DNA from: Fibrobacter succinogenes
GTDB taxonomy: Bacteria > Fibrobacterota > Fibrobacteria > Fibrobacterales > Fibrobacteraceae
Assembly: GCA_902762305.1 (NCBI GenBank)
Contig: CACWNW010000002.1
Location: 248,001 to 312,000 of the forward strand
Length of the DNA stretch: 64,000 nucleotides
Reading direction: 5' to 3'
Shown here: positions 7,708-58,099 of the stretch, one piece after another
Layout: each line of letters opens with the position of its first letter
Position numbering within the stretch: position 1 is the stretch's first letter
Made by a program: the position numbers and the translations under genes
Notes under the pieces: model-generated
Database searches by the model: none
Told to the model about the DNA's origin: nothing
The model's input: only the letters and a program-made list of their open reading frames with translations

Positions 7708-7810
7708 AGGTAGTCAATAGTTCCTAGTTACCAGTTCATAGTTTTTCTGTTTAAAACTGCTTCTTTACTTCTGCATTACTAAAAACTAGTAACTCAGAAC
7801 TCGTAACTCA
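7708..7810. repeat. Inverted heptanucleotide-phase repeat element between mutS and the HD gene
   Basis: The left arm (7708-7745) reads in 7-base steps such as TAGTCAA, TAGTTCC, TAGTTAC, CAGTTCA, TAGTTTT. The right arm (7774-7810), read on the other strand, gives TGAGTTA, CGAGTTC, TGAGTTA, CTAGTTT. The arms therefore form a long imperfect inverted repeat around an AT-rich centre. The right arm ends on the mutS stop codon. Confidence 0.7.
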
Positions 7811-10420
7811 TTTTCCGTAATTTTCCTTCAGTTCCATCAAGCGCTGGAGCGCCTGCATCGGGGTCATTTCCTCGGGCTTGAGCCTGCGGATTTCGTCCCT
7901 AAGGAGCTGAGTGTTTTCGTCGGGAGGCGCAAACATGTCTATTTGCGGGTGCTCCTTCTGCTTTTTCTTCACGGCGCCGTCGCTCGGGTCAATCTTCTCC
8001 TTCTCGAGTCGGAGAAGGATTTTCCTTGCCCTGCGGACAACGTTGTTCGGGAGGCCCGCCATCTCGGCCACATGGATGCCGTAGCTCGAGTCGCAGGCGC
8101 CCGCGAGAATCTTGTGGAGGAACACGAGCTTGTCGCCCTTCTCCTGCACGGCCACCTGGAAGTTGCCCGCGTGTTCGAGCCCCTCGACAAGTCCCGTAAG
8201 TTCGTGATAGTGCGTCGCGAATAGGGTAAGCGCCTGCCGTGCGGGTTCGTCGTGGAGAGTCTCCACAATCGCCCAGGCGATGGAAAGCCCGTCGAAGGTG
8301 CTCGTGCCGCGCCCGATTTCATCGAGCAGCACAAGGCTGTGCGGAGTCGCGTTCCTCAAGATATTTGCGGTCTCGATCATCTCGACCATGAAGGTACTGA
8401 GCCCGCGACTCAGGCGGTCACTCGCCCCCACGCGGGTGAATATGCGGTCCACTACCCCAATGCGGGCAGATTCCGCCGGCACAAAGCAGCCGATTTGCGC
8501 CATCAAAACGATAAGTCCGGTCTGGCGCAGGTATGTCGATTTACCCGCCATGTTCGGGCCCGTGATGAGCATCAGGCGCGTGCCATCGGGCGAAAGCGAA
8601 ACGTCGTTCGGGATGAATTCCTGGTCCGGATTCACGGCGACGATGACGGGATGAAAACCTCCCCTGATATCGATTCCGCCTTCCTCGACCACCTCGGGGC
8701 ACACGTAGTTGTACCTGCGGGCGGCGCGCGCGAAGCTGTAGAGCGCATCGACACGCGCGATGGCGTCGGCAATCTCCTGGAGTTCGGCGCGGGAGGCATT
8801 CACGCGGTCGCGCAGTTCGCAGAAAATCTTGTACTCGAGCGCATGGATGTTCACTTCGGCGTTGCTGATGACGGATTCGCATTCCTTCATCTCGGGAGTG
8901 ATGTATCGCTCGCCGTTCACCGTCGTCTGCTTGCGGATATATTCTTCGGGTATAGGCTGCGTGGCCTTCGCCATCTGCGCCTTCGTAATTTCGATGTAGT
9001 AGCCGAATACGCGGTTGTAGCCGACCTTCAGCTGCGGGATTCCGAGGCGTTCACGTTCGCGCACCTCGAGGTTCGCGAGCCATTCACGGCGTTCCTTGAT
9101 GTCCTCGTTCATGGCGTCAAGTTCGGCATTCGCGCCCGGGCGTATCATTCCGCCTTCGCGCACGGTGAGCGGCAAATCCTCGTTGAAGTTGTCGAGCAGC
9201 TGTTCGCCGCGTCCCTTCGCCTGCACGAGCTTTTCACGCAAGCCTTCGAACATCGGGGCACGCAGGCCTTCAAGCACGTCGGCAACCCGGGACGCCTGCA
9301 TGAGCGAGCGTCCCATGCCCGCGAGGTCGCGGGCGTTGGCGCGGCCCGAACCGACACGGCCCATAAGGCGTTCCATGTCGAGGATGGACGTGAGGGATTC
9401 CTTGAGCTCGTCGAGCGCCACAGGGTTGCCGACGAGTTCCCCGACAGCCTCCTCGCGCTCGCGAATGCGCGGGACCGAAATCAGCGGGTGGCTCACCCAG
9501 TCCTTGAGCGTGCGGCCACCCATCGCGGTAACCGTATTGTCGAGCACGTAGCAGAGCGTGCTGGAATAGTCGTCGGCATTGAGCGGGCGCGTGAGTTCCA
9601 GGTTCCTGAGCGTACTCGGGTCGAGTGTCATGTAGTCTTCGAGATTCAGGATCTCGAGCGTCGTAAAGTGCGAAAGTTCGGACTTCTTCTGGTCCATCAG
9701 GTAGGCCATCATGGCGCCCGTGACGCAAGTCTCGCTTTCACGGCCATCGAGCCCGAGCCCCACGAGGGATTCCACCTTGAAATGCCCATACAGCACGTCA
9801 CGGCACTGCTCTTCTGCGAACATGAACGCAGGCAGTTCCGTCACCAGCACGTTTTCGGCCTTCACCAGGTCCATCACGGGCTGCGGAATGCAGCAACCTT
9901 CCGGCACAATGATTTCCTTGGGCATGCGGCGGCTGAACTCGCATTCGAAAGCCTGCACCCCGCTCTTGCACACGGCCAGGTAACCCGTAGTCACGTCGGC
10001 TATGGCAAACGCGGAATCCTTTTCTGCAGGCATGTACGCGAAAAGGTAGTTCGCCTCCTTCGCGTTCAGGTTCGCCTCGTTCATCGCGGTACCCGCGCTG
10101 ATAATCTCAACGATATCGCGCTTCACGATACCCTTAGCGAGCTTCGGGTCTTCCACCTGTTCGCAAATCGCAATCCTGTAGCCCGCCGCCACCATCTTCG
10201 GCACGTAGCGGTCGGCGGCATGGTGCGGGAACCCGCAAAGCGGGGTCGCTCCCGAGGCGCCGTTATTGCGGCTCGTGAGCGTGATGCCTAAAATCTTGGA
10301 AGCAATAACGGCGTCGTCTTCGAAAAGCTCGAAGAAGTCGCCCATGCGGAAAAACAAAATGCAGCCCGGATTCTGTTTCTTGATCTCGTAATACTGCTGC
10401 ATCAACGGCGTTGCGGCCAT
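7808..10420 (-). CDS. mutS: DNA mismatch repair protein MutS
   Basis: 870 residues, the normal length of MutS1. The N-terminus MAATPLMQQYYEIKKQNPGC and then LFFRMGDFFELF is the mismatch-binding domain with the Phe-x-Glu (FFELF) wedge. The Walker A motif GPNMAGKST lies near residue 620, followed by ARIGVVDRIFTRVGASD, the Walker B-like LVLLDEIGRGTSTFDG and the FATHYHEL switch. It recognises mismatches and small loops and would recruit MutL, which is not in this window. The start ATG shares one base with the stop codon of scpB (TAATG), so scpB and mutS are probably co-translated. The C-terminal extension after residue 790 is short and ordinary. Confidence 0.98.
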   Translation of the reverse strand: MAATPLMQQYYEIKKQNPGCILFFRMGDFFELFEDDAVIASKILGITLTSRNNGASGATPLCGFPHHAADRYVPKMVAAGYRIAICEQVEDPKLAKGIVKRDIVEIISAGTAMNEANLNAKEANYLFAYMPAEKDSAFAIADVTTGYLAVCKSGVQAFECEFSRRMPKEIIVPEGCCIPQPVMDLVKAENVLVTELPAFMFAEEQCRDVLYGHFKVESLVGLGLDGRESETCVTGAMMAYLMDQKKSELSHFTTLEILNLEDYMTLDPSTLRNLELTRPLNADDYSSTLCYVLDNTVTAMGGRTLKDWVSHPLISVPRIREREEAVGELVGNPVALDELKESLTSILDMERLMGRVGSGRANARDLAGMGRSLMQASRVADVLEGLRAPMFEGLREKLVQAKGRGEQLLDNFNEDLPLTVREGGMIRPGANAELDAMNEDIKERREWLANLEVRERERLGIPQLKVGYNRVFGYYIEITKAQMAKATQPIPEEYIRKQTTVNGERYITPEMKECESVISNAEVNIHALEYKIFCELRDRVNASRAELQEIADAIARVDALYSFARAARRYNYVCPEVVEEGGIDIRGGFHPVIVAVNPDQEFIPNDVSLSPDGTRLMLITGPNMAGKSTYLRQTGLIVLMAQIGCFVPAESARIGVVDRIFTRVGASDRLSRGLSTFMVEMIETANILRNATPHSLVLLDEIGRGTSTFDGLSIAWAIVETLHDEPARQALTLFATHYHELTGLVEGLEHAGNFQVAVQEKGDKLVFLHKILAGACDSSYGIHVAEMAGLPNNVVRRARKILLRLEKEKIDPSDGAVKKKQKEHPQIDMFAPPDENTQLLRDEIRRLKPEEMTPMQALQRLMELKENYGK

Positions 10421-13942: not shown

Positions 13943-15361
13943 CTAGAACTGGAAATACAGGAACGGGTTGTAGCTCTGGGTAAACAGCGCAAGTGTCGCG
14001 AGTACAAAGAGCCCGAGCGCGACAACCGCCTTCCAGGTCTTTACCTCGTTGCACCAGTCGAAACTGCGGAACTTCCAGAACGAAAGCAGGGCTGCCACGG
14101 CCATGAACACGATGCACGTGGGCGTGAAGATTTCGGCCGTAAGGATGGCGTCGGCAGCACTCACCGGCATAAGCCCGAGCATTGCCTTCCACATGCGCCA
14201 CGCCTCGCCGATGTTATCGGCACGGAACAGCACCCAGCCGAACAGCACAATCACCTGCGTAATGAGAATCTGCACCACGCGGGGCGCCTTGTAGTAAAGC
14301 GCGTTCTTGTTGTTCGCACGTTCCACAATCATGAAGAAGGCATGGTACAGGCCCCAGCAAACGAACGTCCAGTTCGCACCGTGCCACACGCCGCTCAGGA
14401 ACATGACCATGAACAAATTAAAATACAGGCGCTTCTTGCCCACGCGGTTTCCACCGAGGGCGATGTAGAGGTAATCGCGGAACCAGCTCGTGAGCGAAAT
14501 GTGCCAGCGCTTCCAGAATTCGGTGATGCTCCCCGAGCGGTACGGGCCGTTGAAGTTGCGCGGGAAATGGAACCCGAGCATCAGGCCAAGGCCAATCGCC
14601 ATGTTGCTGTACGCCGAGAAGTCGAAGTAAATCTGGAACATGTACGCAAGGCTGCCCCACCACGTGTTTAGCACGCCCGGAGCGTCCGCCGCAAACACGC
14701 GGTCGGCGATGATGCCCACCTGGTTCGCGAGGAAAATCTTCTCCGCAAACCCGAAACTGAAGAACATGATGCCGCGGACGAAATTCTCGAGCGTATGCGT
14801 GCGGGTCGCAAGTTCTTCTGCGACCGTATTGTAACGCACAATCGGGCCCGCCACGAGCTGCGGGAAGAGCGCCACGTAACAGGCGAACGTCACGAAGTCC
14901 TTGACCGGAGGGGCAGTACCGCGCCACACATCAATCGCGTAGCTCATGGACTGGAACGTATAGAACGAGATGCCCACAGGCAAAAGCACCGTCATCACGG
15001 AGAACGGCTCGCAGCCGAGCTTCGCCACCACATCGTTGATGACGCCCATGCCGAACATGTAGTACTTGAAGAACCCGAGCGCACCGAGGTTCACGACAAT
15101 CGCCGCAAGGAGCGCCAGATTACGCTGCCGCTTGCTCGCACCAGGCGCAGAGATGAACCGCCCGCTCACGTAAACCACGAGCGTCGAGCCGAACATCAGG
15201 AATACGAGCCACGGTTCGAGCCAGCCGTAAAAGATGTAGCTGAAAATCGTGATGAAGAAGTTCAGGCCGGAATGCTTGACACCGGCACGGAACAGCACAA
15301 AGTAGCCGACCAAAAAAGTCGGCAGAAAGTAGAACAGAAAAATCTGGGAAGAAAAAACCAT
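13943..15361 (-). CDS. MBOAT-family O-acyltransferase (AlgI-like)
   Basis: 472 residues with about ten hydrophobic segments. The N-terminus MVFSSQIFLFYFLPTFLVGY is typical of AlgI-like MBOAT proteins (usual length 460-520). The conserved GVWHGANWTFVCWGLYHAFF segment near residue 330 carries the two histidines of the family; the second is the presumed catalytic one. Also typical are LPVGISFYTFQSMSYAIDVW and the FPRNFNGPYRSGSITEFWKRWH stretch of which I cite the parts FNGPYRS and FWKRWH. Such proteins move acyl groups across the inner membrane for O-acetylation of a polysaccharide or another cell-surface polymer. No AlgJ/DltD-type partner is adjacent in this window, so the acceptor is unknown. 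Confidence 0.9.
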   Translation of the reverse strand: MVFSSQIFLFYFLPTFLVGYFVLFRAGVKHSGLNFFITIFSYIFYGWLEPWLVFLMFGSTLVVYVSGRFISAPGASKRQRNLALLAAIVVNLGALGFFKYYMFGMGVINDVVAKLGCEPFSVMTVLLPVGISFYTFQSMSYAIDVWRGTAPPVKDFVTFACYVALFPQLVAGPIVRYNTVAEELATRTHTLENFVRGIMFFSFGFAEKIFLANQVGIIADRVFAADAPGVLNTWWGSLAYMFQIYFDFSAYSNMAIGLGLMLGFHFPRNFNGPYRSGSITEFWKRWHISLTSWFRDYLYIALGGNRVGKKRLYFNLFMVMFLSGVWHGANWTFVCWGLYHAFFMIVERANNKNALYYKAPRVVQILITQVIVLFGWVLFRADNIGEAWRMWKAMLGLMPVSAADAILTAEIFTPTCIVFMAVAALLSFWKFRSFDWCNEVKTWKAVVALGLFVLATLALFTQSYNPFLYFQF

Positions 15362-15363
15362 AA

Positions 15364-15460
15364 GTAGTTGTTAGTCACTAGTCATTAGTTGTTGGTTAAA
15401 GTTAGGCGGCATAGCCGCGATTATAAGAACCAATGACCATTGACCAATGACTATTGACCC
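15364..15460. repeat. Inverted heptad element with GC-rich core hairpin
   Basis: The left arm (15364-15399) is made of 7-base steps of the GTCATTA/GTTGTTA type. The core GGCGGCATAGCCGCG (15405-15419) is a small hairpin. The right arm (15427-15460) is made of steps AACCAAT, GACCATT, GACCAAT, GACTATT. The arms are inverted relative to each other. The element separates two minus-strand genes. Confidence 0.75.
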
Positions 15461-28805: not shown

Positions 28806-28846
28806 ATAGTATATTTAGACAAGAAAAACAAAAAATGGAGTCCAAT

Positions 28847-29947
28847 ATGGCAAAGAAGAACACGACACCCACTAGCAACCTTTCCGCCGACAAGGCAAAA
28901 GCGGTCGAAGCCGCAATTGCGCAGATCGAAAAGAATTATGGTAAAGGTTCCATCATGGCTCTCGGTAGCCAGCCTGTCGAAGAAATCCCCGTCATCCCGA
29001 CCGGCTGCATCCAGCTCGACATGGCGCTCGGCGTTGGAGGTTTCCCCCGCGGCCGCATCATCGAAATCTACGGCCCCGAATCCTCCGGCAAGACGACGCT
29101 CACCCTGCATGCCATTGCCGAAGCCCAGAAGCTCGGCGGTGTCGCAGCCTTCATCGATGCCGAACACGCCTTCGACGCGGTCTATGCCCGCAAGCTCGGT
29201 GTCGATATCGAATCCCTCCTCGTTTCCCAGCCCGATACGGGCGAGCAGGCCCTCGACATCGCCGAGACCCTCGTCCGTTCCGGCGCCATCGATATCATCG
29301 TGATTGACTCTGTGGCAGCACTTGTGCCGCAGGCCGAAATCAACGGCGAAATGGGCGACAACCACGTCGGACTGCAGGCCCGCCTCATGAGCCAGGCCCT
29401 CCGCAAGCTCACCGGCATCCTTTCTAAGTCCAATACCTGCATGCTGTTCATCAACCAGCTCCGCATGAAGATCGGCGTGATGTTCGGCAACCCCGAAACC
29501 ACTACCGGCGGCAACGCCCTCAAGTTCTACGCCACGCAACGTATCGACATCCGCCGCATCGCTGCAATCAAGGACGGCGAAGAGGTCATCGGTAACCGTA
29601 CCCGCGTGAAGGTCGTGAAGAACAAGGTTGCGGCTCCGTTCACCCAGTGCGAATTCGACATTCTCTATGGTTGCGGCATTTCCCGTGAAGCCTCCATCCT
29701 CGACCTCGCCACCGAACTTGATATCATCCAGAAGAGCGGCTCTTGGTTCAGCTACAACAACGAGCGCATCGGCCAGGGCCGCGAGAACACGCGCCTCTTC
29801 CTGAAGGACAATCCGGAACTCTGCTCCGAAATCGAGCAGAAAATCCGCGAGAGTATGAAGGACGTGGAACTGTTCAAGCTCGGCGAGAACGAAGCCCTCG
29901 AGATTGAAGACGACGGCGAAGGCGCTGCGGTCGAAGCCGACGCCTAA
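28847..29947 (+). CDS. recA: Recombinase RecA
   Basis: 366 residues, a normal RecA. Walker [10 protein letters not shown] starts at residue 76, the DNA-binding loop L1 contains [20 protein letters not shown], and [20 protein letters not shown] contains loop L2. The acidic C-terminal tail ([16 protein letters not shown]) is also typical. It forms the filament for homologous recombination and stimulates LexA self-cleavage. The start is set by GGAG at 28837-28840, which favours the ATG at 28847 over the one at 28835 that overlaps it. It has its own promoter-like box at 28810-28817 and a palindrome upstream. The gene is followed by a long heptad array, not by recX. Confidence 0.99.
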
Positions 29948-30035
29948 TAGCCCAGTCAAAAGATGCGGCATAGGTAGCGGACGGAAGCCTGCCAGCGGTC
30001 AACAATCACTGGCAAGCAGTCCTTGCGCAGTCAAT

Positions 30036-30378
30036 AGCCAGAAGTTAACAGCCCGATGCTAAAGGCTAAAGTCCAGAAGCTAAGGGCCAAAAGTCAGAGA
30101 CCAGAAGCCAACAGCTATAAGCCTGCGGTCAATAGCCAGAAGTTAACGACGAGAAGCCAAAGACCAAAAGCCAGTGGCCAACAACCAAGAATTGACGTCA
30201 GGGAGCCATTGACCAAAAGCCAACGGCCAGAAGCCAAAAGCTGACGCCCGAAAGCCAAAGACCAAAAGCCAACGGCCAGAAGCCAAAAGCTGACGCCCGG
30301 AAGCTAATGACCAGAAGCTACAGACTAATGACTAATGACCAATGACCAATGACCATTGACCAATGACCAACAACTAAT
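30036..30378 (+). repeat. 343-bp array of 49 degenerate heptanucleotides
   Basis: From 30036 the sequence can be cut into 49 consecutive 7-mers with no phase slip. Typical units are AGCCAGA, AGCCAAA, GACCAAA, GGCCAGA and, at the right end, GACCAAT. The consensus is RRCYARA, with C or T nearly fixed at position 4. Units 26-32 (30211-30259) are repeated as a 49-bp block at 30260-30308 with few changes. Looser heptads continue to the left to about 29994. The array fills most of the 504-bp gap between recA and the next gene. An open frame within it is a by-product of the repeat. Confidence 0.9.
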
Positions 30379-30451
30379 TCTTCCTTAAAAACGAACTCCG
30401 TTCTTTCTTTTCAGCCATTGGGAAGGAGCGGAGTTTTTTATTTTTCCTCGC

Positions 30452-33943: not shown

Positions 33944-34006
33944 CACGCCAAAGGGATTTGTCATCGCGTAAACCGGCTCCTGCCGGCGTATGCATGTGAC
34001 GAACCT

Positions 34007-34090
34007 GCGGTCGTGGTGGAATTGGTAGACACGCTAGCTTGAGGTGCTAGTGGGAGCGATCCCATGACAGTTCAAGTCTGTCCGACCGCA
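34007..34090 (+). tRNA. tRNA-Leu (GAG), copy 1
   Basis: 84 nt with acceptor GCGGTCG / CGACCGC and discriminator A. The anticodon loop CTTGAGG gives anticodon GAG. A long variable arm (class II) and the T-arm TTCAAGTC are present. The sequence is identical to the second copy at 36845-36928. Confidence 0.97.
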
Positions 34091-34100
34091 TTACGAAGTC

Positions 34101-36844: not shown

Positions 36845-36928
36845 GCGGTCGTGGTGGAATTGGTAGACACGCTAGCTTGAGGTGCTAGTGGGAGCGATCC
36901 CATGACAGTTCAAGTCTGTCCGACCGCA
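36845..36928 (+). tRNA. tRNA-Leu (GAG), copy 2
   Basis: 84 nt, identical to copy 1 at 34007-34090, with anticodon GAG and a class II variable arm. Confidence 0.97.
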
Positions 36929-37098: not shown

Positions 37099-39820
<2,722 letters not shown>

Positions 39821-40036: not shown

Positions 40037-41792
<1,756 letters not shown>

Positions 41793-57679: not shown

Positions 57680-57790
57680 TTATACTCCAAAAGGCCACCT
57701 TTGGCCTAAGTCTTTATTTTTCAATATGTTAACGTAAATTTAATATTAATGTATCAAATAGTCAAGGCAACGCGGTCCCTGCAAGCCAGA

Positions 57791-58099
57791 GACGACGAAC
57801 GAGCGGTCTCTGTGAGCCGTAGGCGACTCGTATTGACGAGTCGTCGAAGGCGAAAGCGAGTGAGAATCCGGAAGTTTCAATGCCCGAGACGACGAACGAG
57901 CGGTCTCCGTGAGCCGTAGGCGACTCGTATTGACGAGTCGTCGAAGGCGAGAGCGAGTGAGAAACCGGAAGTTTCAACGCCAGGAACGTCGAACGAGCGG
58001 TCTCCGTGAGCCGTAGGCGACTCGTATTGACGAGTCGTCGAAGGCGAGAGCGAGTGAGAATCCGGAAGTTTCAATGCCCGAGACGACGAACGAGCGGTC
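57791..58099 (-). repeat. Three 97-bp tandem repeats plus a partial unit
   Basis: Units are 57791-57887, 57888-57984, 57985-58081 and a partial 58082-58099; the word CGAACGAG recurs at 57796, 57893, 57990 and 58087, exactly 97 bases apart. Each unit has the palindrome CGACTCGT-ATTG-ACGAGTCG (57824-57843 in unit 1). On the minus strand the units read AGACCGCTCGTTCGTCG, like the array at 2024-2255, but with a different stem. The array begins right after the stop codon of the minus-strand barrel gene. The remainder of the gap (57680-57790) shows only an AT-rich promoter-like region. 97 is not a multiple of three, so the open frames inside are not genes. Confidence 0.93.

Follow-up and report, generated by a model that had tools for sequence, protein, structure and literature searches.

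Short dispersed palindromes such as REP, BIME and MITE elements are intergenic, often lie between co-directional genes and carry no heptad arms. The heptanucleotide STRR of the cyanobacterium Calothrix are reportedly tandem, degenerate intergenic heptads in the form of direct repeats. Two other heptamer systems have been described. GGGAATC heptamers of Xanthomonas are mostly intergenic, with 70 and 75 cases of close convergent array pairs, lie 28 nt from the upstream ORF, compared to 160 nt from the downstream one, and form arrays whose length differs between close species (Rehm et al. 2015, PMC4692102). TAACTGA direct repeats occur in Beggiatoaceae, cyanobacteria and Bacteroidetes, scattered over phyla, and show indels in 7-nt steps between close strains (MacGregor 2015, PMC4679880). 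Both reports quote heptamers as over-represented among bacterial SSRs together with a polymerase-slippage idea for the unit size of seven, for which an accepted reason is lacking (PMC4692102; PMC4679880).

We analyzed a stretch of 64,000 nucleotides of Fibrobacter succinogenes DNA (the window) from contig 2 of a 3.6-Mb draft genome (57 contigs, 95% complete, 3.8% contamination; G000), in which a long heptanucleotide array stands behind recA. The genus assignment agrees with the Fib_succ_major domain, a family typical of Fibrobacter that all 80 genomes of the genus group carry in multiple copies. The combined evidence indicates that the recA array probably belongs to a population of heptanucleotide STRR or heptameric-SSR arrays spread through the genus, as an oversized example with a single arm and diverged units. 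Many arrays of this population are imperfect palindromes. The population resembles the cyanobacterial STRR in its degenerate tandem heptads in intergenic DNA, and GACYAAT is frequent in cyanobacterial genomes among the matches listed; whereas the STRR are said to be direct repeats, mirrored arms, a core and anchoring to stop codons were measured here. With the Xanthomonas repeats it shares the heptads, the intergenic location, a G-rich arm that comes first, the upstream-ORF side and length variation; however, the Xanthomonas repeat is a single G-rich heptad able to form G-quadruplexes (PMC4692102), compared to about nine heptad families here, with replacement at the same site. The TAACTGA repeats are likewise 7-bp, intergenic and stop-containing units, scattered over phyla and with 7-nt indels, but they are described as one heptad, mostly just 5' of start codons in the main genome, with one inverted set reported (PMC4679880). 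Judged from the sequences compared, the record in Fibrobacter, the several families per genome or genus, the family replacement at fixed sites and the common polarity rule would be new. The initial annotation had known of no report from this phylum, and nothing found in open PMC papers contradicted it; the literal heptad strings had no match in that literature, and in the F. succinogenes genome paper (PMC3079729) the word "repeat" occurs in the reference list only.

The array behind recA

The array falls in the 3' UTR of recA, ahead of the terminator (Table 1), and by eye no intrinsic terminator (GC stem plus T run) was seen inside it. The initial description of the locus was confirmed in part, having overlooked the purer RACYAAT end (77 bp), the 79-bp head that is absent in sister species and three more elements in the window, at approximately 7.7, 15.4 and 41.7 kb.

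Table 1. Features of the recA locus and of the other heptad elements in the window (G078 and G124 are the two nearest sister species).
Feature	Coordinates	Strand	Basis or remark
recA, upstream of the array	28835..29947	+	Pfam RecA (9.6e-139) and RecA_C
79-bp insert head, no clear heptad phase	29957..30035	+	lag-7 identity 0.278; missing in the G078 and G124 alignment
Heptanucleotide array	30036..30378	+	34 different units among 49, all in the same phase; A/C-rich when read on the recA sense strand
Nested 49-bp (7 x 7) blocks, three copies	30155..30301	+	block identity 35/49 and 46/49; TRF
Purer RACYAAT part (last 77 bp)	30302..30378	+	heptad family is that of the dispersed family-A elements
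Intrinsic terminator-like hairpin with T run	30394..30439	+	sequence; kept 3' of recA in relatives
Family-A inverted heptad element	15363..15455	.	arms at 15363-15397 (left) and 15428-15455 (right), core at 15405-15424
Family-A inverted heptad element between groES and groEL	41698..41790	.	neighbors are Cpn10 and Cpn60
Inverted heptad element of family-B type (AACTNRT), flanked by mutS and an HD-domain-like gene	7709..7812	.	

Column information per degree of freedom was 19.45 at period 7 and, over periods 2 to 24 other than multiples of 7, no higher than 1.03. Lag-7 identity reached 0.527, compared to 0.293 ± 0.024 in 2000 dinucleotide shuffles (maximum 0.375), and was still 0.468 without the duplicated block (shuffles 0.287 ± 0.031; maximum 0.394). 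The array thus consists of tandem degenerate 7-bp units in phase, as do STRR and heptameric SSRs. The proposal that phase is kept despite sequence drift was borne out by a constant phase and a consensus fit of 83-97% in 42-bp intervals inside the array. The statement that 49 consecutive 7-mers fit RRCYARA holds for the number of units and their common phase, but the exact consensus is found in only 15/49 units and a fit with at most one mismatch in 37/49, the worst unit scoring 3/7. Units differ from one another at 3.2 of 7 bases on average, and the sense strand is 40% A and 27% C. One ORF of 62 aa (30056-30244) falls wholly inside the repeat. A structured recA 3' UTR was rejected as a candidate, with a folding z of -0.5 for the sense strand (-4.4 for the antisense strand).

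A 49-bp (7 x 7) duplication had also been proposed, and the blocks at 30204 and 30253 are indeed identical at 46/49 positions. Two further pairs, 30155/30204 (35/49) and 30029/30127 (37/49, 98 bp apart), exceed the control of in-phase pairs at other distances (mean 25.7, maximum 34, n = 288), and TRF reported a 49-bp repeat of 3.4 copies at 30154-30318. The pairs 30057/30106, 30106/30155 and 30253/30302 match at only 30, 31 and 26 positions, so the block layer spans just part of the array.

RecA was found in 77 of the 80 genomes of the genus, and the DNA downstream of recA was viewed at 30 loci, 29 of them from other species. By eye, none of these 29 carries a comparable array 3' of recA, while 28 have a terminator with the loop GCCATTG, like that of the window. 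In G078 and G124, whose RecA is 99% identical, only a few bases separate the recA stop codon from the terminator; the terminator is kept, and both the array and the 79 bp ahead of it are absent. By hand count from the sister alignment the whole insert amounts to ~419 bp net, which is not divisible by 7, and the idea that its full length is a multiple of seven was rejected. Given this distribution, the array would be either recent in G000 or lost in its near relatives. Other palindromic repeats, of the types CTGGAT...GGATGAC and CTTCGAC...CAGGATAAC, lie between recA and the terminator at L099 (G061), L092 (G098) and L088 (G118). The repeats gathered at this junction seem to differ from species to species.

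Heptad arrays in the genome, the genus and the sister species

Heptad arrays are intergenic and dispersed through G000, again as STRR and heptameric SSRs are. GACCAATx3 with up to 3 mismatches gave 28+18 sites in this genome against 0+2 for the reversed pattern, overlapping matches in one array being counted separately. When up to 2 mismatches were allowed, GACYAATx3 occurred in 37/167 genomes of the phylum, 34 of which belong to the genus (80 genomes), at 0 to 156 matches per genome. The reversed control TAAYCAG stayed near zero except in G153, from another family of the phylum, where its 28+14 matches make other heptad arrays of that genome's own probable. Dispersal of the recA unit GCCARAA was rejected, since five of its six matches in the own genome are the recA array itself and those in other genomes are few, several genomes having no more of them than of the reversed-pattern control.

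Lag-specific self-similarity was scored in 400 kb each of G000 and G098 and in 374 kb of G105 (segment score 13+; an N run in G105 adds one false segment at each lag). Lag-7 segments numbered 2.0, 7.8 and 3.5 per 100 kb, respectively, compared to 0 to 0.8 at lags 5, 8, 10, 11 and 13. The period-7 signal sought in other intergenic regions is therefore present. G098, which has no GACYAAT array, had been taken as an array-poor negative control and was rejected as such, because its period-7 signal, carried by other heptads (AACCACT, TCCGAAT/TTCTGAA, CCACATT, CTACTGC, AGTTCTA and others), exceeded that of G000 and G105; this result changed our reading. Small samples of other genera and classes of the phylum and of E. 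coli K-12, scanned at a slightly lower threshold, gave 0/40 kb, 0/40 kb, 1/52 kb (a pyrimidine run), 0/80 kb, 2/38 kb and 0/100 kb.

The likening to the cyanobacterial heptanucleotide STRR made in the initial annotation agrees with the many period-7 arrays of G000 and with the exact matches to GACYAATx3 in other organisms, 71/80 of which are cyanobacterial by record title among the matches listed. At 117 loci recruited by the GACYAAT pattern, with the matched arrays masked, lag-7 segments reached 23.1 per 100 kb, compared to 0.1 at lag 5 and 3.1 at lag 8, in a set that is biased by selection on GACYAAT and mostly cyanobacterial among the 80 titles listed.

To follow single sites, the flanks of 22 sites from the picked set and of two window sites were sought in G078 and G124, giving 48 site-by-species cells with 6 unmapped. 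Classed by eye, the 42 mapped cells comprised 15 with the same family, 9 with another family or several families combined, and 18 with no heptad element. Sites L039 and L041 have family A in G000 and family B in both sisters; at L055 and L075, G000 and G078 share family A, while G124 carries a TCACATT palindrome and AGACGAA/TTTCGTC, respectively. Within the window, the element at 7.7 kb is common to the three species at unchanged length. The groES-groEL element is 7 bp shorter in G078, a total that the aligner splits as -1 and -6, and is absent in G124. At the 15361 site G000 and G078 have the core in opposite orientations, with the order of the outer units unchanged and a total length difference of +1, and only 2 bp remain in G124. 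Other homologous elements differ by -7, -14, -21, -8 and -1, by -7 between the two sisters, and by zero in the other aligned ones. Sister-species arrays thus mostly agree with the expectation that strain differences come in multiples of 7 (also -8 and -1), while the recA array, absent from both sisters, offers no such comparison. These results show that the arrays gain and lose whole heptads; at recA, whole 49-bp blocks would be gained or lost too.

Arms, cores and pairing

Architecture was viewed in 40 further stretches chosen from pattern matches. Arrays often form inverted-repeat elements of ~100 bp, in which a hairpin core separates a G-rich heptad arm just behind a stop codon from a C-rich heptad arm ahead of the next start. 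In many elements of the 40 stretches, TTGGTCA-like heptads make up the arm left of the core and TGACCAA-like heptads the arm right of it; others are one-armed. Family-A copies share the core TTA-GGCGGC-NNN-GCCGC-GATTAT in either orientation, with variants such as GGCGCC-TAC-GGTGC. In the G000 cores of this family, that at 15405-15424 being one example, the loop varies with the stems still paired, as GGCGGC-NNN-GCCGC compared to GGCGCC-TAC-GGTGC shows. Family B is built of AACTAGT heptads, and several copies have a TCAAGAAGCTTCTTGA core. The initial interpretation was partly supported; it did not include the pairing of arrays as inverted arms, the presence of more than one heptad family or the anchoring to stop codons.

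Among neighboring mixed GACYAAT-type arms, the left type (TTGGTCA) came first in 14/14 pairs of the G000 set, and in other organisms in 14/15 mixed pairs among the matches listed (80 loci), the exception overlapping itself; the cyanobacterial order rests on a locus set biased by choice. When any heptad was admitted, 54/329 arrays had a clear mirrored partner, with the G-type arm first in 51/54, and 275/329 had no clear partner. Convergent paired arrays are thus present in other elements of G000, and the recA array is one-armed.

All 14 elements folded below the mean energy of 100 mononucleotide shuffles (z -1.8 to -7.7). In the oriented family-A elements (n = 12), own arms paired at -24.2 kcal/mol, compared to -30.3 kcal/mol for arms taken from different elements with the same core orientation, and 20000/20000 permutations fell at or below the within-element mean. 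A looser arm definition gave the same direction more weakly (n = 11, 61/20000 permutations at or above the within-element mean; n = 14, 541/20000), and G064 and G067 yielded 4 usable elements from 20 stretches. A conserved RNA hairpin kept by compensatory change was rejected, since own arms match each other less well than re-paired arms do. Such weak own-arm pairing would be explained by selection or mutation against perfect palindromes, or by their loss in assembly, but not by compensatory evolution of an RNA stem.

Gene junctions and competing explanations

The arrays occupy the junction from a stop codon to the next start or terminator. Their polarity there is fixed, and they appear and disappear between sister species. 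With genes called by a simple gene caller, they lie between co-directional genes in 10/14 cases of the unbiased G000 set, 22/39 in G098 and 6/17 in G105, the rest being convergent, divergent, coding or at an edge; this is roughly alike to all intergenic gaps of 40-600 bp (112/167, 92/147 and 92/151 co-directional, respectively). The median distance from array edge to stop codon was 1.5, 3 and 12 bp in these three sets, and that to the start codon 62.5, 70.5 and 64 bp. On the strand of the gene, arrays beside a stop were G-type in 48, C-type in 8 and neither in 2 (n = 58), and arrays beside a start were C-type in 31, G-type in 5 and neither in 2 (n = 38), counts in which 24/58 stop-side and 19/38 start-side arrays come from loci picked by the family-A and family-B patterns. 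Being C-rich behind a stop, the recA array has the minority orientation. Stop codons per 100 nt per strand were more frequent in arrays than in their own dinucleotide shuffles (8.7 vs 7.0, 7.0 vs 5.7 and 13.9 vs 10.3), the significance being overstated because the shuffles ignore that units are copies, while other intergenic DNA fell below its shuffles (ratio 0.86-0.90). In 34% of 58 array genes, all three frames contained additional stops no more than 42 nt past the stop, compared to 9% of 954 gene ends.

If the recA array belongs to a genus-wide population of heptad arrays, its members would change by slipped-strand mispairing and unequal exchange. Mirror arms and reversed cores could arise from arm-to-arm pairing in replication or from recombination between arms. 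Most copies might then be near-neutral DNA that gene junctions tolerate, affecting the RNA only mildly if at all, perhaps through a hairpin between co-transcribed genes or stops in three frames. Three observations at recA count against this account. The orientation is that of only 8/58 arrays, the GCCARAA units are not enriched elsewhere, and the units are diverged where a young slippage array is expected to be more uniform. Since units that differ at 3.2 of 7 bases are missing from sisters with 99% RecA identity, the array either was diverged on arrival, disappeared from the sisters or mutates quickly. In addition, neutral slippage leaves the polarity rule, the stop-rich heptads and the recurrence of the same sites with different heptads unexplained.

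These features could fit a class of gene-junction elements found across several phyla, a possible but tentative generalization, defined by period 7, a 5'-G-rich and 3'-C-rich polarity, stop-rich units and a conserved post-stop position. In such a class the heptad sequence would be replaceable, sisters would carry different palindromes at the same junction, and the arms would be kept imperfectly complementary. We regard it as rather unlikely that the elements are selected devices, with a stop-dense G-rich arm behind the stop and a C/A-rich arm before the start forming an imperfect hairpin that ends stray translation in all frames, separates cistrons and keeps the next start accessible, the structure and not the heptad sequence being selected. 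The polarity relative to genes (48/58 and 31/38), the all-frame stops, the stop enrichment over shuffles and the different heptad families at the same sister sites (9/42 cells) speak for such devices. However, 18/42 cells have no heptad element at all, including groES-groEL in G124, own arms pair less well than arms of different elements, and the stop enrichment comes from few independent heptad families and could be produced by seeding at stop codons.

It is improbable that the elements are small mobile palindromes, MITE- or REP-like, with heptad arrays as arms and with the recA array as the expanded arm of one insertion. The shared cores (family A in either orientation, family B with TCAAGAAGCTTCTTGA) and the clean presence or absence between sisters at 15361 and 41697 would suit mobility; however, target-site duplications were not seen by eye at the sister-compared sites, many arrays are one-armed and coreless, and at 15361 the outer units kept their order while the core reversed. 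The elements resemble REP, BIME and MITE sequences as short dispersed intergenic palindromes, but differ in their heptad arms and in that a matching transposase does not track the arrays. A mobile REP/RAYT system was rejected on this ground, the Y1 transposase (PF01797) being present in 27/80 genomes of the genus and in 5/13 of those with at least 40 heptad matches. That the recA array is merely a local microsatellite, or a product of chance or assembly, is very hard to sustain: its absence behind recA in the 29 other species examined would agree with a local origin, but the period-7 statistics far above shuffles refute chance, many arrays exist elsewhere in the genome and genus, and the array is internal to its contig with 34/49 distinct units.

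The comparisons made here used a single genome per species. With tens of assembled species, the genus allows the origin, growth, mirroring and loss of such arrays to be measured directly. Family replacement at fixed junctions likewise offers a way to ask whether selection sees the junction or the sequence.

An Rfam search of the window at gathering score gave no match for the array and returned only three tRNAs and a small SRP RNA. Two tRNA-Leu genes (34006-34091 and 36845-36928) have the same GAG anticodon and equal covariance scores and lie less than 3 kb apart. The window also holds two tandem repeats of other unit length. One, of 97 bp (57785-58099; 3.2 copies, 93% match), is GC-rich and ends at or just inside a long ORF. 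The other is a coding repeat of 36 bp (18 bp) at 37205-37403, which encodes an Ala/Glu/Lys-rich stretch in a 491-aa protein without a Pfam match.
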